A model generated the notes under the pieces. That model ran no database searches, had not been told where the DNA came from, and saw nothing but the letters and a program-made list of their open reading frames with translations. A program made the translations under genes and the position numbers. A DNA stretch of 26,597 bases from a virus. The stretch lies in IMG/VR virus record IMGVR_UViG_3300023108_001523, positions 1 through 26,597 of that record. One strand, written 5' to 3'. Positions 4,074 through 23,417 of the stretch are shown one piece after another; position 1 is the stretch's first letter, and each line of letters starts with the position of its first letter.

Positions 4074-4078
4074 AAATT

Positions 4079-4086: not shown

Positions 4087-4099
4087 AGTAATATACGCA

Positions 4100-4107
4100 T
4101 ATAAATA
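4100..4107 (+). promoter_or_regulatory. T4 late promoter (TATAAATA)
   Basis: An exact match to the T4 late -10 element, followed by CCAGT and then ATG at 4113. With the T4 spacing the +1 base is the A of the start codon, so the transcript would be leaderless. It is divergent from the late-like promoter at 4079-4086. Confidence 0.7.
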
Positions 4108-4112
4108 CCAGT

Positions 4113-6362: not shown

Positions 6363-6371
6363 GGAAATAAA

Positions 6372-8152: not shown

Positions 8153-8996
8153 TTTATGGACTGATTATGGTGCGCTTAATAGTAGACCAGTTTTTGATGC
8201 ATTTGCTTATAGTATTATGGGTGCTGGCCATAGTGTTTCTTATAACACTCGGGATTGTGATATTAATGTTATCTGGAGTGTTCTTTGGAATGGGAGAATG
8301 TCTAAGAACAAGTCAATCTGGGATGAGAGTATTGAAAAAAATAAACCAGTAATCGTACTTGAAGTAGGCGGCATACAACGAGGCACTACTTGGAAAGTAG
8401 GACTTAATGGTATAAACAAAGATGCATACTTTGGCGAATTGAACAATACTAACCATCGTGCCAGTGCGTTTGGAATGAGTTTGAAACCTTGGCGCAAAGA
8501 TGGAGAATACATACTTATTTGCGGACAACATAACAAGAGTTTACAATGGCAAAATATGCCTAGTATGAGTAATTGGTTCTTGGATACATATGACCAAATA
8601 CGTAAATATACTGATAGGCCTATAATATTCCGTCCGCATCCTAGATGTAGACTAGAACACATAGAACGTGGATTACGAAATGTGATAAGGCAAGAGCCAA
8701 AGCACATTACAGGTACATACGATAACTTTGATATGGAATTTGATAACGTTTGGGCTACTATAAGTCATAGTAGTAATCCAGGATGCCAGTCTATTCTTGC
8801 TGGTGTTCCTGCATTTGTAAGTCCTTCTTCTCTTGCCTATGATGTAGGCAATAACATAGAATTCATACACGATATAGAAAATCCTGTAATGCCAGATAGG
8901 ATACAATGGCGTAACGATTATGCCTGGACTGAATTTACAATAGAAGAAATTAAACACGGTTTACCACTTAATAGATTGACATCTAGGATATTTTAA
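8142..8996 (+). CDS. GT-B-like surface-polysaccharide protein, paralogue 3 of 3
   Basis: 284 residues. It shares IRKYTDRPIIFRPHPRCR (about 150-167), ISHSSNPGCQSILAGVPAFVSP (about 206-227) and a C-terminal EFTIEEIKHGLPLNRL with the genes at 5541 and 6372. The third block keeps its position but loses the AWR core. EYILICGQHNKSLQW begins the second Rossmann domain. Starts inside the previous gene (11-base overlap) and is the last gene of the island. Between its end and the next gene lies a near-consensus sigma-70-type promoter. Confidence 0.6.
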   Translation: MKFSLWTDYGALNSRPVFDAFAYSIMGAGHSVSYNTRDCDINVIWSVLWNGRMSKNKSIWDESIEKNKPVIVLEVGGIQRGTTWKVGLNGINKDAYFGELNNTNHRASAFGMSLKPWRKDGEYILICGQHNKSLQWQNMPSMSNWFLDTYDQIRKYTDRPIIFRPHPRCRLEHIERGLRNVIRQEPKHITGTYDNFDMEFDNVWATISHSSNPGCQSILAGVPAFVSPSSLAYDVGNNIEFIHDIENPVMPDRIQWRNDYAWTEFTIEEIKHGLPLNRLTSRIF

Positions 8997-9004
8997 GCTA
9001 TACT
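8976..9004 (+). promoter_or_regulatory. Sigma-70-like promoter fused to start codon of the 9011 gene
   Basis: TTGACA (8976-8981), 17-base spacer, TATACT (8999-9004), then six bases and ATG at 9011. The usual +1, seven bases after the -10, is the A of ATG. The -35 lies inside the end of the previous gene. No Shine-Dalgarno is present within 20 bases of the start. Confidence 0.75.
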
Positions 9005-9010
9005 TAATAT

Positions 9011-10162
9011 ATGAATAATATAGCTACAATAGAAGATTTACTAGAACTATCAGCAGGACTTATACAAGGACCAGAAATTTCTCTTGATAACTCTGATATA
9101 ACAATAATGCACAGTATTGCTAGGCAGGTATTCAAAGGTACAGCATTAACAGATAGACAGTTTATGTTAATGCAAGAAAAACTTGAAAAATACAAAACAC
9201 AATTTGTAAATTTAGATTGCGACTTTGATTATGCTGTAAAAGAGCTTAGACAACCTTTAAGAGAAATAGATCGAAGCAAATACATAAAGATAGTCGGTGA
9301 CGAAATAAAAATTAGATTTCCATTTAGAAAATCAGAAATAATGGAGATTAATAGTATCAGCTATCAGTGTGATGATTATAGGCACAGCAAAGGTACGCAC
9401 GAGCATTGGTTCGGATATACAGAAAGAAACGTGCTTGCTATATTAGACAGCTTTTCTAATAAAAGTTTTGAAGTTGATAAAGAACTTTTAAATTTGTATG
9501 ATGAATTATGTGCTATTAGGGAACACCCAGAAAATCATTTAAGTGGACTTTTTGACGGCAAGCTATTGAATGTACACAAAAACCTAGAACCTTATATTAC
9601 AAACAAAAACAAAATAAATTTGATAGATAAAAAATTCAAATACGGATTTTCTTTTGTAGGAGAAATACAACCCACCACACTAGAAGAAAAAATTGCTACT
9701 AGAGCAAGGCCTACGTATGTAAGTAAGCCTTCTGTTGAAACTAATAGTCAAATTTTTCAAGCTTTGTGGAATTTAGATAGATTTCCTATAATTGTATTAC
9801 TTGAAGAAAAATCTGCAGAAGTACAGCTTTATGAGTGTATTAGCTACTTTAGAGATATTTTAGAGCCTGAACAACAAAGTGTACTGTTTAGACAAGAAGG
9901 CCAAGACTCAAGTTTTAATCAATTAATACACGATAGAAAGTTGAACAATTGGGTTGACAAGACAACAAAAATAGTGTATATTAGTACTAATAAACTTCCG
10001 AAGTTGTTAGTCAACAACGAATGGATACCTACAACTGCATTCTGCTATAATAGTAGAATAGATCGTTTTGTTGACAGTTATGTTACACATAACTGTGACT
10101 TAGTTGTATATAGAGAAGAGGATATAAGTCCAATAAGAAAGTATTCAAGATACTATGGCTAG
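9011..10162 (+). CDS. Conserved marine T4-like phage protein next to UvsW, unknown function
   Basis: 383 residues. Recognisable only as a protein type I recall beside uvsW in marine T4-like phages: ITIMHSIARQVFKGTALTDRQ (about 30-50), ELRQPLREIDRSKYIK (about 78-93), KGTHEHWFGYTE (about 125-136), RFPIIVLLEEKSA (about 258-270), and TKIVYISTNKLPK (about 317-329). The alternating hydrophobic strands in the second half (IIVLLEE, KIVYIST, DLVVYREED) could be a degenerate P-loop or helicase-like fold, but I see no Walker A. It is probably co-transcribed with uvsW, whose ATG lies inside its last codons. Function in replication or repair is inference from context. Confidence 0.8.
   Translation: MNNIATIEDLLELSAGLIQGPEISLDNSDITIMHSIARQVFKGTALTDRQFMLMQEKLEKYKTQFVNLDCDFDYAVKELRQPLREIDRSKYIKIVGDEIKIRFPFRKSEIMEINSISYQCDDYRHSKGTHEHWFGYTERNVLAILDSFSNKSFEVDKELLNLYDELCAIREHPENHLSGLFDGKLLNVHKNLEPYITNKNKINLIDKKFKYGFSFVGEIQPTTLEEKIATRARPTYVSKPSVETNSQIFQALWNLDRFPIIVLLEEKSAEVQLYECISYFRDILEPEQQSVLFRQEGQDSSFNQLIHDRKLNNWVDKTTKIVYISTNKLPKLLVNNEWIPTTAFCYNSRIDRFVDSYVTHNCDLVVYREEDISPIRKYSRYYG
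9954..9982 (+). promoter_or_regulatory. Possible internal sigma-70-like promoter ahead of uvsW
   Basis: TTGACA at 9954-9959, 17-base spacer, TATATT at 9977-9982, inside the coding region of the 9011 gene and about 170 bases before uvsW. Good match, but AT-rich coding sequence can produce such matches by chance. Confidence 0.35.
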
Positions 10163-11618
10163 TTGCAAATTAATAATTGAAGACGAAGTAAACATCAAGC
10201 TAGAAGGATTAGAAGTTGACGTCCGTCGAAAGCTTTCTAATGCCCTCAAGTTTGAAGTGCCTTACGCACGTTATATGCCACAGTATAAACTAGGACGTTG
10301 GGACGGCAAGGTTGCTTTCTTTGGTATTGGCGGTACTGGCTACGTTAATCATCTTGATACTATTACACAAGTACTTGCTAAAAACAACGTCCAAATAGTT
10401 GACATCGAAGATAGACGTCATCCTATACAACTAGACTTGCAACCAATTACGGAACGCTATTGGGCAGACCAAGGTGTTCATTGGCCCAAAGGTCATCCGG
10501 CAGAAGGTGAAGAAATTATTCTGCGTGACTACCAAGTCGAAGCAATCAACAACTTTCTAAAAAACCCACAGAGCTTGCAAGAGATTGCAACAGGTGCAGG
10601 TAAAACTATTACAACTGCAACACTGTCACATATAAGTGAGCCGTACGGACGTAGTCTTGTAATTGTGCCTAACAAATCACTTGTTACACAAACAGAAGAA
10701 GACTACATTAATTGTGGGTTAGACGTAGGGGTGTACTTCGGAGACAGAAAAGAGTTAGGTAAGACTCACACTATATGCACTTGGCAGAGCTTGAATATTC
10801 TGGATAAGAAGTTCAAAGACGGCAGTGCAGTACTAAGCCTTGCAGAGTTCTTAGAAGGTGTAAGCACTATTATTGTTGACGAAGTACACCAAGCGAAAGC
10901 AGAAGTTCTTAAAAACTTGCTTACACGTAACCTACGCAATGCACCAATACGTTGGGGACTAACTGGTACAGTACCTAAAGAACGTTTTGAGTTTGAAAGC
11001 ATACACGCAAGTCTTGGTCCGGTTATTGGACAAATCAGTGCTAAAGAATTACAAGACAAAGGTGTGCTATCGCAGTGTCACGTAAACATTGTACAACTAA
11101 TGGACACTGTAGCACACAGCAATTATCAAGAAGAATTAAAATATCTAGTTACAAATAAAGATAGAATAGAATATATAGGCAAACTACTTAATACAGTAAA
11201 AGAATCAGGCAACACTCTAATACTTGTAGATCGTATTTCAGCAGGAGAAGCACTACAAGAACTTATACCAGGAAGTGTATTTGTAAAAGGCGATGTAAAA
11301 TTAAAGGACAGAAAGGAAGCATATGACGAAATTAACGAAGGAACAAATCACGTGGTCATTGCTACGTATGGCGTTGCTGCCGTCGGCATTAATATCCCTC
11401 GTATTTTTAATCTTGTTCTTATAGAACCAGGCAAGTCATTTGTAAGAGTAATCCAATCAATAGGTAGAGGCGTTAGAAAGGCAAAGGACAAAGACTTCGT
11501 GCAAATATGGGATCTTACAAGCACTTGTAAGTTTGCGAAGCGGCACCTTACCCAAAGAAAGAAATTTTATAAGGAGGCGCAGTACCCATTCACAATAGAA
11601 AAAGTGGATTGGAATTAA
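10155..11618 (+). CDS. uvsW: UvsW-type SF2 DNA/RNA helicase
   Basis: 487 residues, close to T4 UvsW (about 500). An N-terminal non-helicase domain (1-115) contains YMPQYKLGRWDGKVAFF, the small UvsW-specific domain. Then come the SF2 motifs: RDYQVEAINNFL (Q-like), EIATGAGKTITTATL with Walker A (ATGAGKT at 145-151), IIVDEVHQAKA (DEVH at 242-245), WGLTGTVPKER (motif III), and VIQSIGRGVRKAKD (motif VI arginines). UvsW branch-migrates recombination intermediates and unwinds R-loops, switching T4 from origin-dependent to recombination-dependent replication. The ATG overlaps the previous gene by 8 bases. Confidence 0.95.
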   Translation: MASCKLIIEDEVNIKLEGLEVDVRRKLSNALKFEVPYARYMPQYKLGRWDGKVAFFGIGGTGYVNHLDTITQVLAKNNVQIVDIEDRRHPIQLDLQPITERYWADQGVHWPKGHPAEGEEIILRDYQVEAINNFLKNPQSLQEIATGAGKTITTATLSHISEPYGRSLVIVPNKSLVTQTEEDYINCGLDVGVYFGDRKELGKTHTICTWQSLNILDKKFKDGSAVLSLAEFLEGVSTIIVDEVHQAKAEVLKNLLTRNLRNAPIRWGLTGTVPKERFEFESIHASLGPVIGQISAKELQDKGVLSQCHVNIVQLMDTVAHSNYQEELKYLVTNKDRIEYIGKLLNTVKESGNTLILVDRISAGEALQELIPGSVFVKGDVKLKDRKEAYDEINEGTNHVVIATYGVAAVGINIPRIFNLVLIEPGKSFVRVIQSIGRGVRKAKDKDFVQIWDLTSTCKFAKRHLTQRKKFYKEAQYPFTIEKVDWN

Positions 11619-12125
11619 ATGAGAATATTAACTTTAGACAATGAGTGTTTCAACTTAGATGATTTACCTGAACAAATAGAAGACGATGTGCGCTTTAGTG
11701 TACTTGATAATTCGGATCCAAAAAATCCAGATTTCTTTTTTGTTCCTTTAATCTTTCTTGAATCATTTAGTGCACCTGCAATGGTGTTGAAGATAGGCGA
11801 TAATGAAATTACTATGCCTGTTGACTGGTCAATAGCTGTTGGCTGTTCCGAAAGTGGTAACGACATAGAAATATTACCTTTAACGAGTATTAACGATAGA
11901 GGCTTTGAAGCATTTTTGTTTAATCCTCTAACAAGTTTTAAAACAGATTTTCAACTGATTACTATAGAAAATTTTTACACTGATGTGAAATGGTACTTTC
12001 CAAAAATGAAAAACGGACAATTGCTTAGTGTACCTGTTACCGATAAAAAGGATCCTATGTGTGCATTTTTTGTAAAAGATATAAGTCGCCAATGTGAAGT
12101 AATTGAATATTCTTTGCTAATGTAA
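11619..12125 (+). CDS. Conserved hypothetical protein downstream of uvsW
   Basis: 168 residues, acidic, rich in beta-strand-forming stretches (FFFVPLIFLESFSAPAMVLKIG, WSIAVGCSESGNDIEILPL). No enzyme motif recognised. It begins directly after the uvsW TAA with no gap, so it is almost certainly translated from the same message by re-initiation. The GFEAFLFNPLTSF segment and the final CEVIEYSLLM are its most distinctive parts. Confidence 0.72.
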   Translation: MRILTLDNECFNLDDLPEQIEDDVRFSVLDNSDPKNPDFFFVPLIFLESFSAPAMVLKIGDNEITMPVDWSIAVGCSESGNDIEILPLTSINDRGFEAFLFNPLTSFKTDFQLITIENFYTDVKWYFPKMKNGQLLSVPVTDKKDPMCAFFVKDISRQCEVIEYSLLM

Positions 12126-12143
12126 ACAAAAAGAGACTAATGT

Positions 12144-12392
12144 ATGGAATGGCTTAACAAACTTTTAAATGTCAAAGACAAAGACTTAGGATTAGATGCT
12201 GATTTACCGCCAGTAGATGAAAAACCAAAAGTTGTAGATGTAATGAAAGATGATGTTGACCCTGCAGAGGTAACAATCGAGAATGCATATAAAACTAGAT
12301 GGATATGGTATCATACAATACTTGCCATTGAAATTATGTTTACTAACATATTATTGGTAGCAATTTTGTTAGTAATAGCATTTAAATTATAA
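12144..12392 (+). CDS. Small single-pass membrane protein
   Basis: 82 residues. Residues 1-52 are hydrophilic and acidic. From about 57 to 80 runs one long hydrophobic helix (HTILAIEIMFTNILLVAILLVIAF) ending in a lysine. No signal peptide, so an N-in/C-out or reverse orientation is undetermined. AAAGAGA seven bases upstream is a plausible ribosome site. Function unknown; small membrane proteins are common in T4-like accessory regions. Confidence 0.65.
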   Translation: MEWLNKLLNVKDKDLGLDADLPPVDEKPKVVDVMKDDVDPAEVTIENAYKTRWIWYHTILAIEIMFTNILLVAILLVIAFKL

Positions 12393-12402
12393 GGAGAACA
12401 AA

Positions 12403-12765
12403 ATGAAAGCAGGAAAGATTTGGGGACAGACTGAACTTATCCACGCTAACGGTGTTTTAGAGTTTCACCGTATTGAATACAAAGCAGGTTATAAGTGTTC
12501 AGAACACGAACACAGATTTAAATGGAACGGATTTTTTGTTGAATCAGGCAAGATGATTGTACGTGTTTGGCAAGACGATCAAGGACTAGTAGATGAAACT
12601 ATTCTTGAAGCAGGTGACTTTACACAAGTAAAGCCTGGCAAAATTCATCAGTTTGAAGGCTTAGAAGACGGTGTAGCATTTGAACTATACTGGGCTGAAT
12701 TTAATCACGACGACATTGTACGAAGAACAAGTGGAACGCAAGTTGGGAAATCTAAAACCAAATGA
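12403..12765 (+). CDS. Cupin-fold protein, single domain
   Basis: 120 residues. HEHRFKWNGFFVESGKMIVRVW gives cupin motif 1 (H35, H37 as metal ligands, with ESGKM in the usual E-GxM position), and AGDFTQVKPGKIHQFEGLED gives motif 2 (PGxxH, H82). Such small cupins are often sugar-nucleotide epimerases, isomerases or sensors. Being directly upstream of kdsA suggests a role in sugar metabolism. A strong AAGGAGAA lies six bases before the ATG, one of the few full Shine-Dalgarno sites here, so this gene may be efficiently translated. Confidence 0.82.
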   Translation: MKAGKIWGQTELIHANGVLEFHRIEYKAGYKCSEHEHRFKWNGFFVESGKMIVRVWQDDQGLVDETILEAGDFTQVKPGKIHQFEGLEDGVAFELYWAEFNHDDIVRRTSGTQVGKSKTK

Positions 12766-13009
12766 AGCACTAATATACGAACGTGTAGATGGTGTTGTAT
12801 ATGCTCGTTATAGAGATGCTCCGCATAATTTAATACCAAGATGGATTGTAGGCGGAGATCCAGGAGCGGTTTCTAGAGCCCAAGGCAATCTAATACACTA
12901 CGGCGAATGGCAAAATTTATGTGACCTATGTGAAGAAAATGAAACATTAAAAAAACAAATGGATAAGCTGGTTACAACATATTGGTTAATAAAGGATACT
13001 AAAGAATGA
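12731..13009 (+). CDS. Small conserved hypothetical protein
   Basis: About 92 residues from GTG at 12731 (an upstream TTG at 12680 would give 109 and a larger overlap with the cupin gene). ALIYERVDGVVYARYRDAPH (about 13-32) and RWIVGGDP look like a small mixed alpha/beta domain, followed by a charged helix (ENETLKKQMDKLVTTYWL) that may be a short coiled coil. No function recognised. Its stop overlaps the kdsA start by 4 bases, so it is coupled to the KDO genes. Confidence 0.55.
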   Translation: MERKLGNLKPNEALIYERVDGVVYARYRDAPHNLIPRWIVGGDPGAVSRAQGNLIHYGEWQNLCDLCEENETLKKQMDKLVTTYWLIKDTKE

Positions 13010-13791
13010 AAATTATTGCAGGCCCTTGTCAACACGAGACACTAGAACAAAGTTTAGAGATTGCACAGGAATGTAAACGTGTATGTGATAAGCTAGGTAT
13101 TGAATATTATTTCAAAGCAAGTTTTGACAAAGCAAACCGAACAAGTATTACAGGTGTACGTGGAGTAGGTCTTGCTAAGACAATGCAAGACTTTCGAAGT
13201 ATGAAAGAACAAATCAAAGGTTTAAAAACTTTGACAGACGTCCACGACACAGGACAGATTGTAACTCTGAATGCCTGGGGAGATGCAGTAGATGTGTACC
13301 AAATTCCTGCTTTTTTATGTCGCCAAACCGACTTGATACAAACAGCTTGTAGCAGCGGAAAAATTGTAAATATCAAAAAAGGACAATTTTTAGCACCTTG
13401 GGATGTTGAAGGTATATTGAGTAAGTGCTACGGTGCAAGCAAAGATAAGCCTGAAATTTGGATTACAGAGAGAGGAACTAGTTTTGGATATAATACTTTG
13501 GTTGTTGATTTCACCGGCATTAACTATATGCTTGATAACTTTGATTGTGATGTGGTTTTGGATGCCACGCACAGTGTACAAAAGCCAGGTGGCAACGGAA
13601 GTAGTAGCGGCGGGAATAGGAATTATGTTCCTGGCTTATGTCGTGCAGGTAGTGCTTTGGGTGTTAGGAATTTCTTTTTAGAGGTTCACGCTGACCCAGA
13701 CAATGCACCAAGTGACGGACCTAATATGTTACGACTAGAAGACTTTGAAAGGACAGTGCGTGAAATTATCAGCTATTCTTATACCGGCTAG
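13006..13791 (+). CDS. kdsA: 3-deoxy-8-phosphooctulonate synthase (KDO-8-phosphate synthase)
   Basis: 261 residues (E. coli KdsA is 284). Condenses phosphoenolpyruvate with arabinose-5-phosphate to make KDO-8-phosphate for LPS inner core. The family signatures are nearly intact: IAGPCQHE at 4-11, FKASFDKANRTS (about 36-47), TDVHDTGQI, VYQIPAFLCRQTDLI (about 96-110), VNIKKGQFLAPWDV, TERGTSFGYNTLVVD (about 154-168), DATHSVQKPGG (about 186-196), and HADPDNAPSDGPNML near the end. The stop lies 32 bases inside kdsB. The KDO-8-P phosphatase is not seen in this window. Confidence 0.96.
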   Translation: MKIIAGPCQHETLEQSLEIAQECKRVCDKLGIEYYFKASFDKANRTSITGVRGVGLAKTMQDFRSMKEQIKGLKTLTDVHDTGQIVTLNAWGDAVDVYQIPAFLCRQTDLIQTACSSGKIVNIKKGQFLAPWDVEGILSKCYGASKDKPEIWITERGTSFGYNTLVVDFTGINYMLDNFDCDVVLDATHSVQKPGGNGSSSGGNRNYVPGLCRAGSALGVRNFFLEVHADPDNAPSDGPNMLRLEDFERTVREIISYSYTG

Positions 13792-14452
13792 ATACGGAAG
13801 CACTCGCTTCCCAGGAAAGCCGCTTACAATGCTAAACGGCAAAACAATGATACAAACTGTAGCAGAAAAATGTAAAGATTTTGGCTATGATACATATGTA
13901 CTCACAGACCATAAGCTAATTGCACAGGCAGCACAAGCATCAGGCGTAGGCGTTTATATAGATACTTCTGATTACGAAAACGGCACAGAAAGATGTGCAG
14001 GTGCAGTATACAGTCGCAAGTTTGACGATTATGATTATTTTATTAATGTACAAGGTGATATGCCAGACGTAACACAAGAGATGGTTGAAAAGTGTGAATT
14101 CAGTCTAGGCAATCACTATCAAGTTAGCACAGTGTACACAGATATGCCAGAAGAAAAACAAAACGATCCTAGCTCAGTAAAAATGGTACGTGGCGGAGAC
14201 TCTGCACTATGGTTTGGTAGAGGTATGACGGGTTACGGTTTATGGCACTTGGGTGTATATGGTTACACTAAGAATGCACTGCAATGCTACAACCATATGC
14301 GTATTGAAAAAGAAGAACGTGTTGAAAAATTAGAACAACTGCGTTGGTTAAAAAACGGTTGGCAAATTGGTTGTTTGAGTGTACAATTTAATGGTACTGA
14401 GATTAATACTCCTGAAGATGTAGAGACGTGGAATGCCCAACAAACACATTGA
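13760..14452 (+). CDS. kdsB: CMP-KDO synthetase (3-deoxy-manno-octulosonate cytidylyltransferase)
   Basis: 230 residues from GTG at 13760, with AAAGGA (13748-13753) at good spacing. It activates KDO with CTP before transfer to lipid A. ILIPARYGSTRFPGKPL at the N-terminus is the nucleotide-binding loop. YVLTDH, NGTERCAGA (family SGTDR) and FINVQGDMPDV (family VQGDEP) follow. The methionine in GDMP instead of GDEP is unusual, while the metal-binding aspartate is kept. EINTPEDVE near the C-terminus is the expected closing motif. Paired and overlapping with kdsA. Confidence 0.93.
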   Translation: MKLSAILIPARYGSTRFPGKPLTMLNGKTMIQTVAEKCKDFGYDTYVLTDHKLIAQAAQASGVGVYIDTSDYENGTERCAGAVYSRKFDDYDYFINVQGDMPDVTQEMVEKCEFSLGNHYQVSTVYTDMPEEKQNDPSSVKMVRGGDSALWFGRGMTGYGLWHLGVYGYTKNALQCYNHMRIEKEERVEKLEQLRWLKNGWQIGCLSVQFNGTEINTPEDVETWNAQQTH

Positions 14453-14900
14453 CTTGTTTAAAGAAATGATTCCTGCGCTGGATGGCGGAATGCGTGAACT
14501 GTATGACGCAGCAGGTGAAGATGGACAAAAAGAAATCAAAGGCGACTTATGGAACCTCAATAGGTATATGAGTAGTGTTAAAGGCTCACGTGAAAAACAA
14601 GAACTTGCTGTGTTTAAAACAAACGAATACTACAACAAGAATTGGGCAGTACTAGGCAACAAAGAAGCAAAACTACAGTGGTACTTGTTATGTCAATGCG
14701 GTAACACAGGCAAAAGTGAATTTCATCCTTGGATAGGTTTTAAGAAAAAAGGTGCTGACAATAGCAAAGGTGTAAAACTACTAGAAAAAATTTATCCAAA
14801 TATGAAACAAGATGAGATAGAGCTACTTGCAAATTTATCTACAAAAAAAGAACTTAAACAATTAGCAGAGGAGCACGGAATTGAAGGCTTCAAAATATGA
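14433..14900 (+). CDS. Probable clamp-loader small subunit (gp62-like)
   Basis: 155 residues. The layout of NEYYNKNWAVL (about 65-75), KLQWYLLCQCGNTGKSEFHPWIGF (about 80-103), an EKIYPNMKQDEIELLANL stretch (about 118-135), and a final STKKELKQLAEEHGI resembles the small clamp-loader subunit of marine T4-like phages. T4 gp62 ends in a comparable KQLKKLALEW. Gp62 works with gp44 to load the sliding clamp. Neither gp44 nor gp45 is in the window, and position after kdsB is unexpected, so the call is tentative. Overlaps kdsB by 20 bases. Confidence 0.5.
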   Translation: MPNKHIDLFKEMIPALDGGMRELYDAAGEDGQKEIKGDLWNLNRYMSSVKGSREKQELAVFKTNEYYNKNWAVLGNKEAKLQWYLLCQCGNTGKSEFHPWIGFKKKGADNSKGVKLLEKIYPNMKQDEIELLANLSTKKELKQLAEEHGIEGFKI

Positions 14901-15688
14901 CCAAGCTACTAACCTTTGGATGCAGTTTAACAAGATATCATTGGCCAACTTGGGCTGATATATTAGGGTTTCATTTTGATAACTTCCAAAACTGGGCAAA
15001 TAGAGGCGCAGGCAATAAACAAATATTTGAAAGATTTTCTGAAGCAGTATTAAAAAATCAATTAAATTCCAATGATGTCATTATAATACAATGGACCGAC
15101 TATCACAGATTTGATAGGAAATACGACGATGCAAGTATGCACGAAAGCTGGTACCAAGGTGGTAATTTATTATTAGATACTGATATAGATCCGACAAAGA
15201 TTTTTATTGCACGTAAATTATGGGACGAACAAAGTTATATACTACACACTTGGAATTATATTCACGCTGCTACAGCAATTGCAAAAAATTTGAAATGCAA
15301 AGTTTTTATGACATCTAGCATAGATTTACACCAAGACTTAACTGGAGATTTATCAATATATCAAAATGTAGTCGAAGACGGTAACTGGATAGATACTAAT
15401 TTATATACTTGGTGCATAGATAATCATAAAGATAAATTAACAACGTTTGCTGGTGCAGGTGATTGGACAAACAAAAGTAAAATTATACAAGATCAACACC
15501 CTACACCTATAATGCATTACTATTGGTTAGAAAAGTCTATTGCACCTTTGCTTGAATTAAATTTAGATAAACAGTTTGCAGACGTTATGCAAACTGTCGT
15601 TGAAGATACGACAGACTTTTATAGTATAGGGCAAGCAATAGAAAATGCAGGCTACAATACAAATCAATTTTATCAACGAGGGTACTAA
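14897..15688 (+). CDS. SGNH-hydrolase-like protein
   Basis: 263 residues. LLTFGCSLTRYHWPTWADIL places a serine in an SGNH block I-like position (about residue 10). NRGAGNKQIFERF (35-47) fits blocks II/III with the GxGN turn. QDQHPTPIMHYYW (198-210) gives an Asp-x-His in place of the usual DxxH. Members of this group act on acetylated or acylated sugars, and a glycan de-acylation role would fit the neighbourhood, but the catalytic spacing differs from classical SGNH enzymes. The start overlaps the previous stop by 4 bases (ATGA). Confidence 0.58.
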   Translation: MTKLLTFGCSLTRYHWPTWADILGFHFDNFQNWANRGAGNKQIFERFSEAVLKNQLNSNDVIIIQWTDYHRFDRKYDDASMHESWYQGGNLLLDTDIDPTKIFIARKLWDEQSYILHTWNYIHAATAIAKNLKCKVFMTSSIDLHQDLTGDLSIYQNVVEDGNWIDTNLYTWCIDNHKDKLTTFAGAGDWTNKSKIIQDQHPTPIMHYYWLEKSIAPLLELNLDKQFADVMQTVVEDTTDFYSIGQAIENAGYNTNQFYQRGY

Positions 15689-16371: not shown

Positions 16372-16817
16372 AAATATTAATTATGGGTCTGCCCGGAGCA
16401 GGCAAAACTTGGCTTGCCGAAAGGTTGCAAAAACACTTAAATGACTGTGCGTGGTATAATGCAGATGAAGTGCGTAAAATGGCAAATGACTGGGAATTTA
16501 GTGAAGAAGCTAGAATACGTCAAGCTCGTAGAATGCGTAACCTAGCAGATTACGAAAAAGGATGCGGGCGTACTGTTATTTGTGATTTTGTATGTCCTAC
16601 TGATCTTACTAGACATATTTTTGAAGCAGACGTTGTTGTATGGGTAGATACAATTTCTGAAGGAAGATTTGAAGATACAAACAAAATGTTTGAAGAACCG
16701 AAAACTTTTGATTTTAGAATTATAACACATCTAAAGGAAGAAACCGGAGACGTGGAAAGATTAGCAAATGCAATACAACAGATCAATATTTTAGAGACTG
16801 AAATAATAGCAGTATAA
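16368..16817 (+). CDS. Adenylylsulfate-kinase-like P-loop kinase
   Basis: 149 residues. MKILIMGLPGAGKTWLAERL carries Walker A (GLPGAGKT, 7-14). YNADEVRKMANDWEFSEEARIRQARRM, with its D-x-x-R and DW-FS-eaR elements, matches the APS kinase (CysC) substrate region, followed by VICDFVCP where CysC has an S-P-like segment. APS kinase makes PAPS, the donor of sulfotransferases such as the one encoded at 3435-4073. The protein is shorter than typical CysC (about 200) and lacks an obvious complete lid, so a related small-molecule kinase is possible. AAAGGA upstream and a 4-base overlap with the previous gene. Confidence 0.7.
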   Translation: MKILIMGLPGAGKTWLAERLQKHLNDCAWYNADEVRKMANDWEFSEEARIRQARRMRNLADYEKGCGRTVICDFVCPTDLTRHIFEADVVVWVDTISEGRFEDTNKMFEEPKTFDFRIITHLKEETGDVERLANAIQQINILETEIIAV

Positions 16818-17038
16818 TGGAAGATCGTGTAAGCAAGAAACGTCATTTAGCAAAAGCAATAACCTGGCGTTTGATAGCAAGTTTGACAACAGCAGCAATA
16901 GCTTTTTTATTTGGATTACCACCTAAAGCAGTAGGCGCTGTATTTGTTATAGATTTAATAATAAAGTTTATAATGTATTACGTACACGAGCGTATATGGT
17001 ATAAACACATTCGTTACGGAGTAAAAGATGAGTTTTGA
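16817..17038 (+). CDS. DUF2061 small membrane protein
   Basis: 73 residues. KKRHLAKAITWRLIASLTTAAIAFLFG and AVGAVFVIDLIIKFIMYYVHERIWYK are the DUF2061 signature with two transmembrane helices (about 16-34 and 40-60). Function is unknown; as I recall, DUF2061 proteins are sometimes found near or fused to APS-kinase-type genes, and here the gene overlaps the APS-kinase-like stop by one base (TAATG). That neighbour relation suggests a membrane role linked to the kinase product, an inference only. Confidence 0.85.
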   Translation: MEDRVSKKRHLAKAITWRLIASLTTAAIAFLFGLPPKAVGAVFVIDLIIKFIMYYVHERIWYKHIRYGVKDEF

Positions 17039-17441
17039 TTGGAAAAAGCCTACTGCGCAAATGCTGGGCAGATGGCAACCGTGGCACGATGGTCACACAG
17101 CACTATTTAAAAAAGCACTATTAGAAACAGGTCAAGTATGTATTATGATTCGAGATGTCGGAGGTATTGTAGGTCAAGATGCTGGCGGCGGCCGCACAGT
17201 AAAGCAAGATGATAACCCGTTTGATGTGGAAACAGTAACACAGAATATTGTACAAGGATTAGCAAATCAAGGCTTTACAGAAGGCGAAGAATATGTTATA
17301 ATGTTTGTACCAAACATAGTTGACATTAGTTATGGTCGCGGCGTAGGTTATACATTTACACAACACGACTTGGGTGAAGAGATACACAATATTAGTGCAA
17401 CACAGATAAGAGCACAGTTGAGAGAAGAAGGCAAGTTATGA
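17028..17441 (+). CDS. Nucleotidyltransferase (HxGH superfamily)
   Basis: 137 residues. GRWQPWHDGHTALFKKAL (14-31) is the HxGH nucleotide-binding motif. YVIMFVPNIVDISYGRGVGY is a substrate-side segment. HNISATQIRAQLREEGKL closes the protein with the ISxTxIR motif shared by NMN, phosphopantetheine and glycerol-phosphate nucleotidyltransferases. It could act in NAD salvage, in activating a sugar alcohol, or with the adjacent kinase; the true substrate cannot be seen. GGAG nine bases before the ATG, and a small overlap with DUF2061. Confidence 0.82.
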   Translation: MSFDWKKPTAQMLGRWQPWHDGHTALFKKALLETGQVCIMIRDVGGIVGQDAGGGRTVKQDDNPFDVETVTQNIVQGLANQGFTEGEEYVIMFVPNIVDISYGRGVGYTFTQHDLGEEIHNISATQIRAQLREEGKL

Positions 17442-17935
17442 ATTTAGTTTACTATCCAGATCCGTTTTTAGACAAGCAAGTTGCAGAAGTTGATTTAGAA
17501 AACCCTACATTTGACCCTGCTGAACTAAAAAAAGAAATGGTAGACTTAATGTTATCTAGTAATGGTATTGGCCTGAGCGCAAATCAAGTTGGTTTAGATG
17601 CACAAGTATTTGTTATGGGCGACAGCTTAGAGAATAGTACTATTTGTATTAATCCAACTGTTCTACAGTATACATCAGAAACTATTTTAGATGTTGAAGG
17701 ATGTCTAAGCTTTCCTAATATTTTTGTCAAAGTAAAACGTCCAAAAGAAATACTTGCAAAATGGTACAATGAGAATTTAGAAGAACAGGTTGTAAAAATT
17801 GAAGGGTATAGTGCAAAATGTTACTTACACGAATGGGATCATTTACACGGCATAACGTTTAAAGATCGTGTATCAAAAATAAAATGGGATATGGCTACAA
17901 AAAAAGCACGTAAATTGGAGAAGCATCTTGCCTGA
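17438..17935 (+). CDS. def: Peptide deformylase
   Basis: 165 residues. All three metalloenzyme motifs are present: GIGLSANQVG (43-52, family GxGLAAxQ), EGCLSFP (87-93, metal ligand C89) and HEWDHLHG (131-138, metal ligands H131 and H135, catalytic E132; family HExDH). Removes the formyl group from nascent protein N-termini; marine phages carry such genes probably to speed maturation of phage or photosystem proteins. It starts four bases before the end of the previous gene. Its end overlaps the TTG start of the next gene. Confidence 0.96.
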   Translation: MNLVYYPDPFLDKQVAEVDLENPTFDPAELKKEMVDLMLSSNGIGLSANQVGLDAQVFVMGDSLENSTICINPTVLQYTSETILDVEGCLSFPNIFVKVKRPKEILAKWYNENLEEQVVKIEGYSAKCYLHEWDHLHGITFKDRVSKIKWDMATKKARKLEKHLA

Positions 17936-18488
17936 TATTGATATCGACTTTGCAGATCGCAGTGTTATACTAGACAAGATACAACACCGTGTGGCAAAAT
18001 TAGATACAGATAAGAAACACAATACAGGAATTTATGTAACAGAAATTCCACATAATCCTATTGACAACTTATCAACAATCGAACATAAAACAGCAGAAGA
18101 TAGAGGCTATTTTAAATTAGATTTTTTAAATGTAAGCATTTATAAAAACGTTAAGAGTAACGAACATCTACAACAACTTATGGATAAGGAACCATTATGG
18201 GATTTATTAACAGAGCCAGAATTCAGCAACAACTTATTTCACGTAGGCGAACACAGTACAATTCTACAGCAAACGAAACCCAAATCAGTAGAACAACTAG
18301 CAGCAGTCCTAGCGATGATACGTCCTGCGAAGAGGCATCTTGTCAACGAAACTTGGCAAACGATACTAACAGAAGTTTGGAAAAAACCCGAAGACGGTAG
18401 CTATTACTTTAAGAAAGCACACGCAATAAGTTACGCAATGGCTGTAGTAATACATATGAATTTATTGTGTGAAGAATTTACTACTTAG
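17928..18488 (+). CDS. Miniature DnaE-like (C-family polymerase palm) protein
   Basis: 186 residues starting at TTG 17928, with GGAG eight bases upstream and overlapping the deformylase stop. The protein begins exactly at MPDIDIDFADR, the DnaE motif with two catalytic aspartates (D3, D5). KHNTGIYV (30-37) corresponds to DnaE KHAGGVVI. GYFKLDFLNV (60-69) carries the third catalytic aspartate (D65). SVEQLAAVLAMIRPAKRHL (120-138) and FKKAHAISYAMAV (161-173) match DnaE landmarks. The PHP domain, the glycine-serine-rich loop and most of the fingers are absent. It is conserved in marine T4-like phages as I recall. Function unknown: a minimal polymerase, or a regulator using a palm fold. Confidence 0.85.
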   Translation: MPDIDIDFADRSVILDKIQHRVAKLDTDKKHNTGIYVTEIPHNPIDNLSTIEHKTAEDRGYFKLDFLNVSIYKNVKSNEHLQQLMDKEPLWDLLTEPEFSNNLFHVGEHSTILQQTKPKSVEQLAAVLAMIRPAKRHLVNETWQTILTEVWKKPEDGSYYFKKAHAISYAMAVVIHMNLLCEEFTT

Positions 18489-18849
18489 GTTTTCTTACTA
18501 GCTGTACACTTCTGCGCTTTACACGCTTTACAGCTAAATTATTGAGATTAACAACAGGTCCAATTGTTATCTTAACATCTTTAGAGTTCATTGTAACTAT
18601 AGAATATTTAAATTGGTCCATTTCTTTTCTTAGAAATATATTAATAGGAATGAGTCTATTTGACTCCCACCACCATATATCTCCTAATTCTAAAAATTGA
18701 CTTTGTTCTTTTTTTGATTTTAAATCTGTGTAAACATACATTGATGTTACTGTTTGATCCTGATTAATGATGATACCGATATATTCGTTACCCCCATAAG
18801 TAACCACACTTAAGAACGGAAAATTTTCTTGTATATCTTTTGTTAACAT
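18481..18849 (-). CDS. Conserved hypothetical protein, minus strand
   Basis: 122 residues. FPFLSVVTYGGNEYIGIIINQ and FLELGDIWWWESNRLIPINIFL are distinctive. The C-terminus is basic (LAVKRVKRRSVQLVRKPK), suggesting nucleic-acid or phosphate binding. I recall similar proteins with the WWWESNR block in marine T4-like phages but no function. Its stop overlaps the convergent mini-DnaE stop by 8 bases. Its start diverges from the virion protein gene. No clear promoter or strong ribosome site is visible ahead of its ATG. Confidence 0.78.
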   Translation of the reverse strand: MLTKDIQENFPFLSVVTYGGNEYIGIIINQDQTVTSMYVYTDLKSKKEQSQFLELGDIWWWESNRLIPINIFLRKEMDQFKYSIVTMNSKDVKITIGPVVNLNNLAVKRVKRRSVQLVRKPK

Positions 18850-18857
18850 TTTATTCC

Positions 18858-18865
18858 GATAAATA
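18858..18865 (+). promoter_or_regulatory. T4-like late promoter (GATAAATA)
   Basis: GATAAATA followed by CATT and the ATG at 18870. By T4 late geometry the transcript would start at or one base beside the A of the ATG. No Shine-Dalgarno is seen. Fits late expression of a virion protein. Confidence 0.65.
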
Positions 18866-18869
18866 CATT

Positions 18870-19655
18870 ATGCAACTAACACCTAGATATTTAGTCTCAA
18901 ATTTAACCAAGCTTCGTTCAAATGAAAGCGGATTCATAGTGGAGTATAGACCAGTGTACAGTAGACAATTACAAGTTTTTAAAGGCATAGATAATGTCTT
19001 AGATTTTAGATTATATAACGCAGATCAGCGTCCAATACCAATGACAAATTATACTCCCAAGTTTGTTGCATACGATGAAAATCAAGTGTTAGTAATCGAA
19101 AAGGACGGAGTTGTGCAAGACGACGGTTCGAGCGAAATCAAAGGCAAGTTCAGTGTTACTATAACAGAAAATGAATTACTTAATATAAAGCAACAATTTC
19201 TTTCCTATAACATTTATTTGGTTGATGCAGATAGCAATAAAGTATTGACATACAATCATAGTAATTTTGACAACGATGCAACAATTTATGTAAATGCAAA
19301 AACATTTCCTGGACCTCTTGCAACGTATCAAGTTACACAATTTGAACAAACAGAAGTAGGTACAGATCAGTGGATATCAGAAACAATTGATGCTCAACCT
19401 GGTATAAACGGTAATGAAGCACTACATACCGCAGCGGCGTATACTAGTTCTTATGTAGGTAATATAGTAGTACAAGCAACACTAGATAATCAAGTAACCG
19501 AAAGCACTAACTGGGCAGACATTGCAACAATGACATTCAGCGGTACAGAAACAGAACCGTTACCAGTAAATTTCAACGGTGTGTTTAGTCATTTACGATT
19601 CAAAGCAAATTCAAATCCTGCTGATAAAATTACAAAAATTTTAGTAAGAAATTGA
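18870..19655 (+). CDS. Probable virion structural protein
   Basis: 261 residues from the ATG at 18870; the frame also contains an earlier TTG at 18840, rejected because it lies upstream of the late promoter. Beta-rich sequence with a repeating strand-turn pattern (IVVQATLDNQVTESTNWADIATMTFSGTETEPLPVNF) and a final LVRN. This resembles tail or baseplate-associated proteins of marine T4-like phages, where a beta-sandwich C-terminal domain binds ligands. No transmembrane or signal segments. The late promoter abutting the start supports a structural role. The following intergenic 35 bases hold the primase promoter. Confidence 0.65.
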   Translation: MQLTPRYLVSNLTKLRSNESGFIVEYRPVYSRQLQVFKGIDNVLDFRLYNADQRPIPMTNYTPKFVAYDENQVLVIEKDGVVQDDGSSEIKGKFSVTITENELLNIKQQFLSYNIYLVDADSNKVLTYNHSNFDNDATIYVNAKTFPGPLATYQVTQFEQTEVGTDQWISETIDAQPGINGNEALHTAAAYTSSYVGNIVVQATLDNQVTESTNWADIATMTFSGTETEPLPVNFNGVFSHLRFKANSNPADKITKILVRN

Positions 19656-19684
19656 TTGACATAAATTAGCAACTACGCTATAAT
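19656..19684 (+). promoter_or_regulatory. Consensus sigma-70 promoter fused to the primase start codon
   Basis: Perfect TTGACA (19656-19661), 17-base spacer, perfect TATAAT (19679-19684), then six bases and ATG at 19691. The expected +1 is the A of ATG. No Shine-Dalgarno is present. The promoter follows directly on the end of the structural gene. Confidence 0.85.
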
Positions 19685-19690
19685 AATACT

Positions 19691-20692
19691 ATGAGTGTAG
19701 TAGCCGAATCAGTTCTGACATACCTGCCTGCTAAGAGGAAACAAACTCCTAGCGGCTGGCTATCATTCAATGCGCCCTGTTGCCATCACAACGGCCACTC
19801 AGCTGATAATAGAGGCCGAGGAGGACTAATAAGCAATCCTGACGGAGGTGTAAGTTATCATTGTTTTAACTGTGGTTTCAAAGCCTCGTGGCAACCTGGG
19901 CGTAACTTTTCACACAAGATGCGAAGGCTCTATCAATGGATGGGAGCGCCTGACGATATAATCAACAAGGTGGCACTTGATGTGATGCGAGAGAACGAGG
20001 GCGTTGAAGCACTAGAACGTATTGCTCAACTGCCCACGTTCGACTCTGTACCGTTGCCAGAAGATGCTGTTAGACTTGCAGACTATCAATGGGCAGAGCC
20101 AGGTACTATACCAGAGCGTATGGTAAATGTGTTTCAGTATATGCTAGAACGCAATCTACGTATAGACGACATTGACTATCATTGGTCACCTAGTTTAGGT
20201 TATCGTGATAGGCTTATTATTCCTTTCTATTATGAAGGTAGAATAGTAGGCTGGACTGCTCGTGCTATCACACCAGATAAGAAGCCTAAATACTTAACAG
20301 AAGTGCAACCTGGCTATGTGTTTAACCTAGACGAACAACGACATAACAAAGTATTTGCTATTGTTTGCGAAGGACAAATAGATGCACTACACGTAGAAGG
20401 ATGTGCGCTAGGAGGCAGTGAAATATCTGACCAACAATCACTGCTGCTAAATAAGCTACAGAAGGAAATAATTGTTGTACCTGATAGAGACAAAGCTGGC
20501 AGCAAATTAGTAGAGCAAGCTATTGAACTAGGATATTCTGTTTCAATGCCTGAATGGGCAGATGATATTAACGATATAGGAGATGCAGTACAACGTTATG
20601 GTAGATTGTATACGTTACATAGTATTGCTACACAATCAGAAGAGTCGCCTTTGAAAATAAGACTGAGAGCAAAAAAATGGTTCACAAAATAA
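19691..20692 (+). CDS. gp61: DNA primase (T4 gp61-like)
   Basis: 333 residues, matching T4 gp61 (342). An N-terminal zinc-binding domain has candidate ligands in CCHHNGHS (30-37) and YHCFNCGFKAS (57-67). The TOPRIM-type core follows: FAIVCEGQIDALHVEG (acid E in VCEGQ) and IIVVPDRDKAGSKLVEQA (DxD). It synthesises RNA primers for lagging-strand replication in complex with the gp41 helicase encoded three genes downstream at 21990. Preceded by a consensus promoter with no leader, so it is likely an early gene. Confidence 0.92.
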   Translation: MSVVAESVLTYLPAKRKQTPSGWLSFNAPCCHHNGHSADNRGRGGLISNPDGGVSYHCFNCGFKASWQPGRNFSHKMRRLYQWMGAPDDIINKVALDVMRENEGVEALERIAQLPTFDSVPLPEDAVRLADYQWAEPGTIPERMVNVFQYMLERNLRIDDIDYHWSPSLGYRDRLIIPFYYEGRIVGWTARAITPDKKPKYLTEVQPGYVFNLDEQRHNKVFAIVCEGQIDALHVEGCALGGSEISDQQSLLLNKLQKEIIVVPDRDKAGSKLVEQAIELGYSVSMPEWADDINDIGDAVQRYGRLYTLHSIATQSEESPLKIRLRAKKWFTK

Positions 20693-20814
20693 AAAAGATC
20701 CTAAAAAAGATATGGAGTTGGATTGCTTGGCCGTACTATAAGATAAAAGAAGAAATTGCTTATAGACGTAAAATTAAGGAACTCAAGAAAAGAGATCCAT
20801 TTATATATAAATGA
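20677..20814 (+). CDS. Small basic conserved protein (45 aa)
   Basis: 45 residues from the ATG at 20677. Highly basic and aromatic: KIKKILKKIWSWIAWPYYK, then YRRKIKELKKRDPFIYK. The closing ELKKRDPFIYK-type ending is one I recall from small proteins of marine T4-like phages. Amphipathic helix likely; it may bind membrane or nucleic acid. The ATG lies inside the primase end (16-base overlap) and its stop overlaps the next ATG as ATGA. Confidence 0.7.
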   Translation: MVHKIKKILKKIWSWIAWPYYKIKEEIAYRRKIKELKKRDPFIYK

Positions 20815-21017
20815 TAGAAAACTTAGGACCATACCAAGTATTAAGTTACTATACTCAAACGTTCTCTACGCCTAAAGTAGATACAGAAATTCACGTGCGT
20901 CATATCAAAGAAAGAGGACAAACAAGAGTTGAAGAAGTTGTCTTTACTTCCTACAATTCAAAAGGTCAAGAAGTAAAACATAATCCACATATGCCAAAGG
21001 TAGATATTATTGTATGA
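20811..21017 (+). CDS. Small conserved hypothetical protein (68 aa)
   Basis: 68 residues with beta-strand periodicity (TEIHVRHIKERGQTRVEEVVFTSYNSKG). No motif recognised. It is coupled at both ends by four-base overlaps (ATGA) with the 45-residue protein and the carbamoyltransferase, so it belongs to the primase transcript. Confidence 0.68.
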   Translation: MIENLGPYQVLSYYTQTFSTPKVDTEIHVRHIKERGQTRVEEVVFTSYNSKGQEVKHNPHMPKVDIIV

Positions 21018-21982
21018 TTATTTGGGGAATGGTTGGTAACAGTCACGATGCTAGCCTAGGAATTTTTAAAGGTGACAAACTGCTATGGGCAAGTCTATCA
21101 AAAGATTTCTCAGGCATTGCTAATGACCCTAATCATAATAAAGAACAGATTGCATATGCCCTAGACAAATACGGAGTACCTGAGCAAGTTATATGGTACG
21201 AACGTCCCCTATTAAAAACACTACGTCAGCTGTATGCAGGCCAGGGTTGGTTACTTAAAGAAAATAATATACGTAGTTATCTAAAGCAATATAATATATG
21301 TTGTCCCATTTTGTATACCCAACACCATCTTTCACACGCTGCTTATGCTTATTACACTCAGCCCTATGACGATTGTGCTGTTATATGCTTAGACAGTATT
21401 GGAGAATTTGAGACCCTGACCATATGGCACGGCAAGAACAATCGACTTAAGAAGATACATTCACAAGGGTATCCACATAGCCTAGGACTTTTCTACAGTG
21501 CTATGACACAACGTATGGGGTTACAAGCACAACGTGACGAATATCTAGTGGCACAGTATGCAGAAAAAGGTAGCAAAGAAAGACTGTTCAAAGTAATGTG
21601 GGATGAGATTATATCAATGCAAGGCTTAGGTGTAGACCCTAAAGTTACCCTACACGAAAATTTACACAGGGGATGCAATTGGTGGCGTCCTGGGTTGTGT
21701 AGCCAGCAGGATATATACGATATAGCAGCAACCACCCAAGCAATATTTGAGTACTGTTTAATGAACCTAAGTGAATGGGCTCGCAAAGAAACAGGTAGCT
21801 CTAACATAGCATTAGCAGGTGGCGGCGCACTTAATAGACAGGCAGTTGAAAAAATTAAACCACGTTGGAATAATGTATGGGTTCCTACTAATCCTGGTGA
21901 TCCGGGATCGTGTATCGGTGCAGTATTAGCAAAGACAAAACAAAAAACAACACTTGACAATATATGGTATCAGAAAGTATAA
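21014..21982 (+). CDS. Carbamoyltransferase (NodU/CmcH family), N-terminal domain only
   Basis: 322 residues, about half of typical NodU/CmcH proteins (550-600). The ASKHA/Kae1-like fold motifs are visible: WGMVGNSHDASLGIF (4-18), TQHHLSHAAYAYYTQPYDDCAVICLDSIGE (about 99-128, metal-binding HxxxH), SLGLFYSAMTQRMG, and NIALAGGGALNRQAVEKI (about 265-282). It should use carbamoyl phosphate and ATP to make a carbamoyl adenylate and carbamoylate a sugar or nucleoside. The C-terminal domain is missing, with the next gene's promoter starting in its last codons. Host glycan decoration or DNA modification are both possible targets. Confidence 0.85.
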   Translation: MIIWGMVGNSHDASLGIFKGDKLLWASLSKDFSGIANDPNHNKEQIAYALDKYGVPEQVIWYERPLLKTLRQLYAGQGWLLKENNIRSYLKQYNICCPILYTQHHLSHAAYAYYTQPYDDCAVICLDSIGEFETLTIWHGKNNRLKKIHSQGYPHSLGLFYSAMTQRMGLQAQRDEYLVAQYAEKGSKERLFKVMWDEIISMQGLGVDPKVTLHENLHRGCNWWRPGLCSQQDIYDIAATTQAIFEYCLMNLSEWARKETGSSNIALAGGGALNRQAVEKIKPRWNNVWVPTNPGDPGSCIGAVLAKTKQKTTLDNIWYQKV

Positions 21983-21983
21983 T
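21954..21983 (+). promoter_or_regulatory. Sigma-70-like promoter fused to the gp41 start codon
   Basis: TTGACA (21954-21959), 18-base spacer, TATAAT (21978-21983), then six bases and ATG at 21990. Same six-base -10 to ATG distance as at 9011 and 19691. The promoter overlaps the final codons of the carbamoyltransferase gene. No Shine-Dalgarno is present. Confidence 0.8.
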
Positions 21984-21989
21984 TACAAT

Positions 21990-23417
21990 ATGACAAGACA
22001 AAATACAGATTACGGTTATGATATACAAAAAGTATATCTTGAAATGATGTTAACAGATGCAGAGTCGTTTGTTCGCTGTCAGGCTGTGTTTAATCCAGAC
22101 ACGTTTGACCGAAAGTTGCAAGCACCTGCAAAATTTTTAAATGATTATGTAACAGAACATAATGCACTTCCTACATTTGAAATGATTAATGCTGCTACAG
22201 ACAGCAACTTAAAAGACCCAGGGCAACTACAGGAGAATCATTATGACTGGCTACTTCAGGAGTTTGAAACATTCTCCAGACACAAGGCTTTGGAAGCGGC
22301 CATCCTTACTAGCGCAGATCTGTTGGAAAAAGGGGAGTATGGTCCGGTTGAGGATTTGGTTAAGAAAGCAGTACAGATTGGTTTGCAAAAAGATCTAGGT
22401 ACAGACTACTTTGCAGATCCTAGAAGTAGACTAGAAGCAATCAAAGACAAAAACGGACAAGTAAGCACAGGTTGGCCGGCACTAGATAAGAAACTGTTTG
22501 GTGGCTTTAACAGAGGTGAGCTTAATATCTTTGCAGGTGGTTCAGGTTCGGGTAAGAGTTTGTTCTTGGCTAACTTGGGCGTGAACTGGGCACTAGCAGG
22601 TATGAACGTAATTTACTTGACATTTGAGCTTTCAGAGAATCTAGTTAGTATGCGGCTTGATTCAATGACTACAGATATTCCAAGTCGTGATGTTTTTAAG
22701 AGCATTGACGATGTTGAAATGAAAGTAAAGATGATTGGCAAAAAGTCAGGTGCATTCCAGGTCAAGTATATGCCCACTGGCAAGAACGCAAATGACATTA
22801 GAAGTTATTTGAAAGAATATGAGATCAAAACAGGCAAGAAGGTAGACGTATTGCTTGTAGACTATTTGGACTTGATGCATCCGATAGCAGCTAAGATTAG
22901 TGCAGAGAACTTGTTTGTTAAAGACAAGTATGTGTCAGAAGAACTACGTAACTTGGCTATGGAACTGAACTGTTTGTTTGTAACAGCATCGCAGTTGAAC
23001 AGGAGTTCGGTTGAAGAGATTGAGTTTGATCATTCGCATATCTCAGGTGGTATTTCAAAGATCAATACAGCAGATAACTTAATCGGTATCTTTACAAGTA
23101 GAGCAATGCGTGAACGTGGACGCTATCAAATACAGCTAATGAAGACTAGAAGTTCAAGTGGCGTTGGACAAAAGATCGACTTAGAGTTTGATGTAGACAG
23201 TTTGCGTATTAGAGACTTAGGAGAGGATGAAGAGTATCAAGAGTTTAACAAACGTAAGTCAACCGTGTTTGATCAAATCAAACGCAGTAGTGGCGCACCT
23301 ATAGAAGAAGGACAACAACGAGAAGATCCAACTGAGGGTGATACTGTAGGTAAAATACGTGCCCAAACAGATTCAACAAAACTAAGACAATTTCTCAATA
23401 ATTTAGGAGACGAATAA
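21990..23417 (+). CDS. gp41: DnaB-like replicative helicase (T4 gp41-like)
   Basis: 475 residues from the ATG at 21990 (T4 gp41 is 475). An upstream TTG at 21954 is in frame but lies in the promoter -35, so it is rejected. N-terminal helical domain 1-130, then GWPALDKKLFGGFNRGELNIFAGGSGSGKSLFLANL, including Walker A GGSGSGKS at 183-190, VDVLLVDYLDLMH (Walker B, about 285-297), LFVTASQLNRSS (about 331-342), and an arginine-rich MRERGRYQIQLMKTR. The hexamer unwinds the replication fork 5'-3' and partners with the primase. The C-terminal tail is acidic and polar. Confidence 0.94.
   Translation: MTRQNTDYGYDIQKVYLEMMLTDAESFVRCQAVFNPDTFDRKLQAPAKFLNDYVTEHNALPTFEMINAATDSNLKDPGQLQENHYDWLLQEFETFSRHKALEAAILTSADLLEKGEYGPVEDLVKKAVQIGLQKDLGTDYFADPRSRLEAIKDKNGQVSTGWPALDKKLFGGFNRGELNIFAGGSGSGKSLFLANLGVNWALAGMNVIYLTFELSENLVSMRLDSMTTDIPSRDVFKSIDDVEMKVKMIGKKSGAFQVKYMPTGKNANDIRSYLKEYEIKTGKKVDVLLVDYLDLMHPIAAKISAENLFVKDKYVSEELRNLAMELNCLFVTASQLNRSSVEEIEFDHSHISGGISKINTADNLIGIFTSRAMRERGRYQIQLMKTRSSSGVGQKIDLEFDVDSLRIRDLGEDEEYQEFNKRKSTVFDQIKRSSGAPIEEGQQREDPTEGDTVGKIRAQTDSTKLRQFLNNLGDE

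Follow-up and report, generated by a model that had tools for sequence, protein, structure and literature searches.

How is a gene translated when its promoter stands directly against its start codon and leaves no room for a Shine-Dalgarno (SD) sequence? The question is raised by virus record IMGVR_UViG_3300023108_001523, a fragment of 26.6 kb whose whole length we call the window. Six of its gene starts lie 4 to 6 nucleotides (nt) downstream of promoter-like elements, which belong to a sigma-70-like class and a T4-late-like class. Comparison of these starts with related phage loci indicates that the two promoter classes very probably give rise to real, gene-specific leaderless mRNAs, as a preliminary description of the window had proposed for both replication and late genes. 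We present below the evidence for this prediction, its variation from gene to gene and the alternatives to it.

Six promoter-like elements directly precede start codons

On direct reading of the window, all six elements named in the preliminary description are present at the following coordinates and spacings.

TTGACA 8976-8981, TATACT 8999-9004, ATG 9011, plus strand: sigma-70-like promoter TTGACA-17-TATACT-6-ATG
TTGACA 19656-19661, TATAAT 19679-19684, ATG 19691, plus strand: sigma-70-like promoter TTGACA-17-TATAAT-6-ATG
TTGACA 21954-21959, TATAAT 21978-21983, ATG 21990, plus strand: sigma-70-like promoter TTGACA-18-TATAAT-6-ATG
4100..4107, plus strand: T4-late-like element TATAAATA, 5 nt before ATG 4113
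4086-4079, minus strand: late-like element GCTAAATA, 5 nt before ATG 4073, the weakest of the six
18858..18865, plus strand: T4-late-like element GATAAATA, 4 nt before ATG 18870

The genes that begin at these start codons are as follows.

9011..10162, plus strand: protein of 383 amino acids, function unassigned (weak match to phrog_21015, unknown function), predicted leaderless
19691..20692, plus strand: DNA primase (T4 gp61-like, Toprim), predicted leaderless (phrog_47 DNA primase, Toprim_2, homologs)
21990..23417, plus strand: replicative helicase (T4 gp41/DnaB-like), predicted leaderless (phrog_19, DnaB_C, 80 relatives)
4113..4874, plus strand: cytidylyltransferase-like / mannose-6-phosphate isomerase-like protein, predicted leaderless (Pfam CTP_transf_like and MannoseP_isomer)
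3435..4073, minus strand: sulfotransferase-family protein (Pfam Sulfotransfer_2), with ATG 4073 or, further upstream, ATG 4100 as its start
18870..19655, plus strand: virion structural protein-like gene, predicted leaderless late gene, directly 5′ of the primase (phrog_14467 virion structural protein)

An SD sequence is missing at all six starts (9011, 19691, 21990, 4113, 4073 and 18870) and present at the window starts 6372, 12403, 23487, 25563 and 25754, which bears out the earlier reading on this point. Dozens of homologs start at or near the same position as the start codons 18870, 19691 and 21990, while 5 rows support the start at 4113 and 11 rows the start at 9011. These and the later per-gene counts are counts of rows, with the window and Pseudomonas phage PA5oct included where they match.

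A generic promoter scan was unusable by itself because its weak sites barely exceeded those in shuffled sequence (about as many for positions 1-13500 and modestly more beyond). Five sites match at least 11 of the 12 consensus bases, and for three of these five the distance to a gene start is exactly 6 nt (P ~6e-9 if the sites were placed at random). Both perfect sigma-70-like sites of the window are found at this distance. The window holds 10 late-type sites, three of which lie 4-5 nt before a gene start (P ~6e-7). The six-site observation is real and is hereby confirmed.

The local settings of these elements differ. The primase promoter (19656..19684) sits inside a 35-base-pair (bp) intergenic gap. 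The helicase promoter (21954..21983) extends over the 3′ end, stop codon included, of an upstream carbamoyltransferase-like gene, and in some clades of relatives the extended -10 sequence TGGTATAAT also codes the C-terminal W-Y-N of that upstream protein. At 18849-18870, a 20-bp gap between divergent genes contains the late element of the plus-strand gene; in relatives that carry TTCCTATAAATA, its reverse complement is an SD-like AGGAA for the minus-strand gene. The gene at 9011-10162, conserved and predicted leaderless, adjoins a UvsW-like gene, and Pfam and PDB searches with its protein gave no match.

Both spacings point to a transcription start at the start codon

The spacings of both classes place the transcription start point (+1) at or beside the A of the ATG. 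The two classes stand at different distances from the start codon, and each distance is the one that its own polymerase needs. In T4, the late motif TATAAATA occupies positions -13 to -6 (PMC1524935), which independently predicts a 5-nt gap to the ATG. The 5-nt gap and the TATAAATA-like motif agree with a +1 at the ATG, a start point predicted here from sequence.

Bacterial polymerase prefers a pyrimidine at position -1. This base is a pyrimidine in 51 of 52 non-redundant leaderless primases and in 24/24 cases for the late structural gene. Across four large phage contigs (199-358 kb), it is found at 49/54 leaderless starts compared to 160/352 SD-led starts (P 9e-11). Upstream of the primase, the information is concentrated in the -35, the -10 and the -1 base (T), while the spacer remains at background. 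A match to a gp55-like late sigma factor was obtained in all four of the large relatives searched, with E values from 1.6e-6 to 7.6e-8.

We propose that host RNA polymerase with its main sigma factor would start the helicase, the primase and the 9011 gene at the A of the start codon, and that a phage gp55-type late sigma factor acting with host RNA polymerase would serve 4113, 18870 and probably 4073. The resulting mRNAs would have neither leader nor SD sequence and would need initiation at a 5′-terminal AUG. In marine T4-like phages, this architecture is kept gene by gene beside an SD-led majority. The start points and the translation of the leaderless mRNAs are what we infer from the layout and its conservation.

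Leader lengths are absent or long, with few between

We fetched 80 relatives of the helicase and compared their start regions, covering a total of 1.09 Mb of related loci. Judged by helicase and primase, the cultured phages that come closest are jumbo T4-like phages: PA5oct, Agrobacterium phage Atu_ph07, Sinorhizobium phage Phosso and enterobacterial jumbo phages. A search for named relatives of the window at the DNA level found none.

The preliminary description had called for a scan of related genomes for -10 elements near ATGs against a control, and the outcome favors its reading. Among plausible gene starts in the 1.09 Mb, TATAAT stands 6 nt before the ATG in 60 cases, 7 nt in 26 and 5 nt in 14, while each of the remaining distances to 20 nt holds 0-7 cases; permuted hexamers produced no comparable peak. 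When the four large contigs were pooled with the window, a sigma-70 -10 box was observed 23 times at 6 nt compared to a background of 4.75 per position, and late elements were observed 37 times at 4-5 nt compared to 0.9 per position. Late elements were nearly absent at 6-15 nt and reappeared in a second, leadered mode at 16-33 nt. Both promoter classes are seen in each of the four large contigs.

These distributions bear on compaction, the explanation that scarce intergenic space pushes promoters onto start codons and that the lack of a leader serves no function in itself. The gaps near these genes are short (0-35 bp), and the helicase promoter reaches into the upstream coding end, both as compaction would have it. 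Compaction predicts a broad range of short leaders, however, and in the observed cases the leader either is missing altogether or measures about 10 nt or more, with few lengths between; this scarcity of intermediate leaders argues against simple compaction. It also leaves the sharp placement and the -1 pyrimidine unexplained. T4, cyanophage Syn9 (first 50 kb examined) and the enterobacterial jumbo phages are compact as well, and they use leaders at the corresponding genes or promoters. We consider compaction a possible but doubtful account, and the earlier suggestion that the arrangement simply saves space falls short of these observations.

The arrangement is conserved in certain genes and switches in others

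The leaderless reading was next compared gene by gene. A leaderless sigma-70 start is found for the primase in 63 of 70 rows, with a spacing of 6 in 50 of those 63; its homologs, PA5oct included, span 34-82% identity, the window itself apart. The same start type is found for the 9011 gene in 10 of 11 rows and for the helicase in 39 of 80. A late element lies 5 nt before the cytidylyltransferase-like gene (4113) in 4 of 5 rows, and 4-6 nt before the structural gene (18870) in 27 of 64. In the remaining rows of the 18870 gene, mostly the same late element has moved further upstream behind a short leader, which then often contains an SD-like sequence. Other genes are nearly never leaderless, including the UvsW-like helicase (0/26), the peptide deformylase (0/15) and the polymerase (1/16).

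Fixed spacing in relatives had been proposed as the mark of a real arrangement. It persists in three genes: the primase, the 9011 gene and the cytidylyltransferase-like gene. The helicase and the 18870 structural gene switch between leaderless and leadered forms. The minimum number of such changes on the helicase tree is 16 for the helicase, 13 for the structural gene and 7 for the primase, where the 7 stems from rows with a -10 box that fails our strict rule and several of them are still leaderless by eye.

The candidate rule that every gene of the phage is leaderless was rejected, and a genome-wide leaderless rule is not supported: SD-led starts are the majority, and certain genes are essentially never leaderless. 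The data point to leaderless genes as a conserved minority and to a trait that varies gene by gene.

Could the elements not be promoters?

Several points weigh against a leaderless reading. The start codons come from a simple open reading frame (ORF) caller and homology. Because the compared sequences are related, their counts cannot be taken as independent events. Late sites at 4 nt require a one-base shift of the start point. The minus-strand site at 4073 is the one site of the six that lacks comparative support: an alternative upstream ATG lies at 4100 in the same ORF, and the 3 distant homologs found do not share the promoter. Finally, the TATAAT has a second role in 14 of the 39 leaderless helicases, the window's not among them: it encodes the terminal W-Y-N of the upstream protein, and its conservation in those 14 cases may be driven by the protein.

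The last of these points also favors a different explanation, in which the elements are not working promoters, the genes are expressed by read-through or coupled translation, and the layout of a -10 before an ATG is coincidence or shared coding sequence. The tight packing of genes on one strand would suit it as well. Yet the primase promoter is intergenic, and its -35 is conserved along with it even though the spacer changes, each class stands at the spacing required by its own polymerase, and the -1 base is biased as it is in initiation sites. We regard this explanation as very improbable.

What could leaderless messages be for?

If the mRNAs are leaderless, their role may be sought in timing or in the state of host translation. 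Under a timing switch, any ORF lacking an SD sequence would be silent in read-through messages and translated only from transcripts that begin at its own AUG, and promoter class alone would set when this occurs. Because an AUG inside a read-through message would have no ribosome-binding site, the gene would be made only from its own promoter. The primase begins 35 bp downstream of the late structural gene on the same strand, and no terminator was predicted between the 18870 structural gene and the primase; this position fits the timing switch. Of the purposes considered, we think the switch the likeliest, and we offer it tentatively. If true, it would let early replication genes directly follow late structural genes without terminators.

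Alternatively, the phage could shift the host translation machinery and its leaderless genes could exploit that state, as in phage phiYS40 of Thermus, where more IF2 and less IF3 are reported (PMC3594737). The phage peptide deformylase at 17438 in the window would be in keeping with such a shift. However, deformylase serves SD-led genes too, and an SD sequence still precedes most of the late and replication genes. A search for an IF3 homolog in eight relatives, several of whose records are fragments, found none. This explanation is unlikely, and the altered host factors invoked in the preliminary description are unsupported by these comparisons. A search for the RegB nuclease, which would leave SD-less messages intact, gave no hit, but neither did its control, and the result carries no weight.

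Reach of the arrangement among other phages

In cultured Pelagibacter phage HTVC008M, 11 gene starts, many of which belong to structural genes, have a late element exactly 5 nt upstream. For its gp48 gene this distance is kept in 16 of 19 non-redundant relatives, at identities as low as ~41%; leaders are found in the three most divergent of the 19.

The PA5oct primase reads TTGACA-17-TATAAT-6-GTG with the GTG in frame, and a late site lies 5 nt before a structural gene of the same phage. The annotated GTG of the PA5oct primase (MK797984) directly follows the TATAAT (L145:18944), a position that would leave it out of transcripts made from this promoter. The sequence suggests that the in-frame GTG six bases further on is the better candidate for the start.

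In a sample of IMG/VR contigs (L158-L277), the distances from perfect sigma-70 promoters to the ATG of nearby ORFs also show a peak at 6-7 nt, which indicates that the arrangement extends beyond this clade. Named by eye, with no family search, the genes concerned include what look like primases, a clamp loader, a UvsW-like helicase and a polymerase. Leaderless phage genes may thus be common well beyond this group.

Comparison with known leaderless systems

A classical leaderless phage mRNA from a sigma-70 promoter is that of lambda cI, transcribed from PRM. That case is a single repressor gene, compared to the conserved set of replication and structural genes described here; the lambda origin is noted in PMC3160421.

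In bacteria, leaderless genes are known as TA-led genes (Zheng et al. 2011, PMC3160421), and a -10 region adjacent to ORFs has been described in Deinococcus-Thermus (PMC12340547). The phage genes resemble them in having a -10-like hexamer ~10-12 bp upstream of the start codon instead of an SD sequence, with SD sequences present at other genes of the same genome, both in the window and in relatives. In both systems, leaderless translation is deduced and orthologs switch between forms. The phage system differs in comprising few conserved genes, in the strong -35 of its sigma-70 class and in adding a second class, late-sigma, with a spacing of its own. In D. radiodurans, the pattern is found in ~1/3 of genes and a -35 box is not required.

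Thermus phage phiYS40 produces leaderless middle and late mRNAs (reviewed in PMC3594737) and is likewise a large phage with leaderless mRNAs in its infection programme. Its host itself has many leaderless genes, and changes in initiation factors are reported there; the present case shows no sign of these, and its transcription system is T4-like.

The late class shares with T4 late promoters (gp55) the same motif, TATAAATA, and relatives carry a gp55-like gene; the CTAAATA variant known from Aeh1 (PMC1524935) is shared as well. In T4, the NATAAATA motif stands mostly 23-29 nt before the ATG and never at 4-5 nt, whereas the main mode here is 4-5 nt without an SD sequence. The leader with a downstream SD that is usual in T4 is absent at 4113 and 18870 of the window; it is a habit of T4 and not a defining part of the promoter.

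According to a paper on jumbo phage AR9 (PMC5312081), the transcripts of phages are often leaderless. We found no report of the present leaderless pattern in T4-like, pelagi- or jumbo phages among open-licence papers. Leaderless genes as such are known, while their conserved two-class form in marine T4-like phages appears to be new.

Other features of the window

The replication genes carried by the window are the UvsW-like helicase, the gp61-like primase, the gp41-like helicase and pieces of a DnaE-type polymerase. These polymerase pieces are two and separate, at 17928-18488 (186 amino acids) and 23487-25133 (548 amino acids), and the PDxDIDF motif occurs in both. In Sinorhizobium phage Phosso, a short DnaE-like fragment is annotated beside the same minus-strand gene. 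At 13006-14452, a DAHP_synth_1-family gene that reads like KDO-8-phosphate synthase is followed by a gene that reads like CMP-KDO synthetase (named by eye only); the sequence of this pair suggests phage manipulation of lipopolysaccharide sugars.

Significance

Marine T4-like phages, cultured HTVC008M included, carry two promoter classes at the spacing that would remove the leader, before the same genes and across long divergence. Late-promoter prediction with cyanophage methods is reported to fail in pelagimyophages (PMC7029224), and the promoter-fused placement may be the reason. The same genes are leaderless in some phages and SD-led in close relatives, a natural experiment that makes the role of leaderless translation directly testable.

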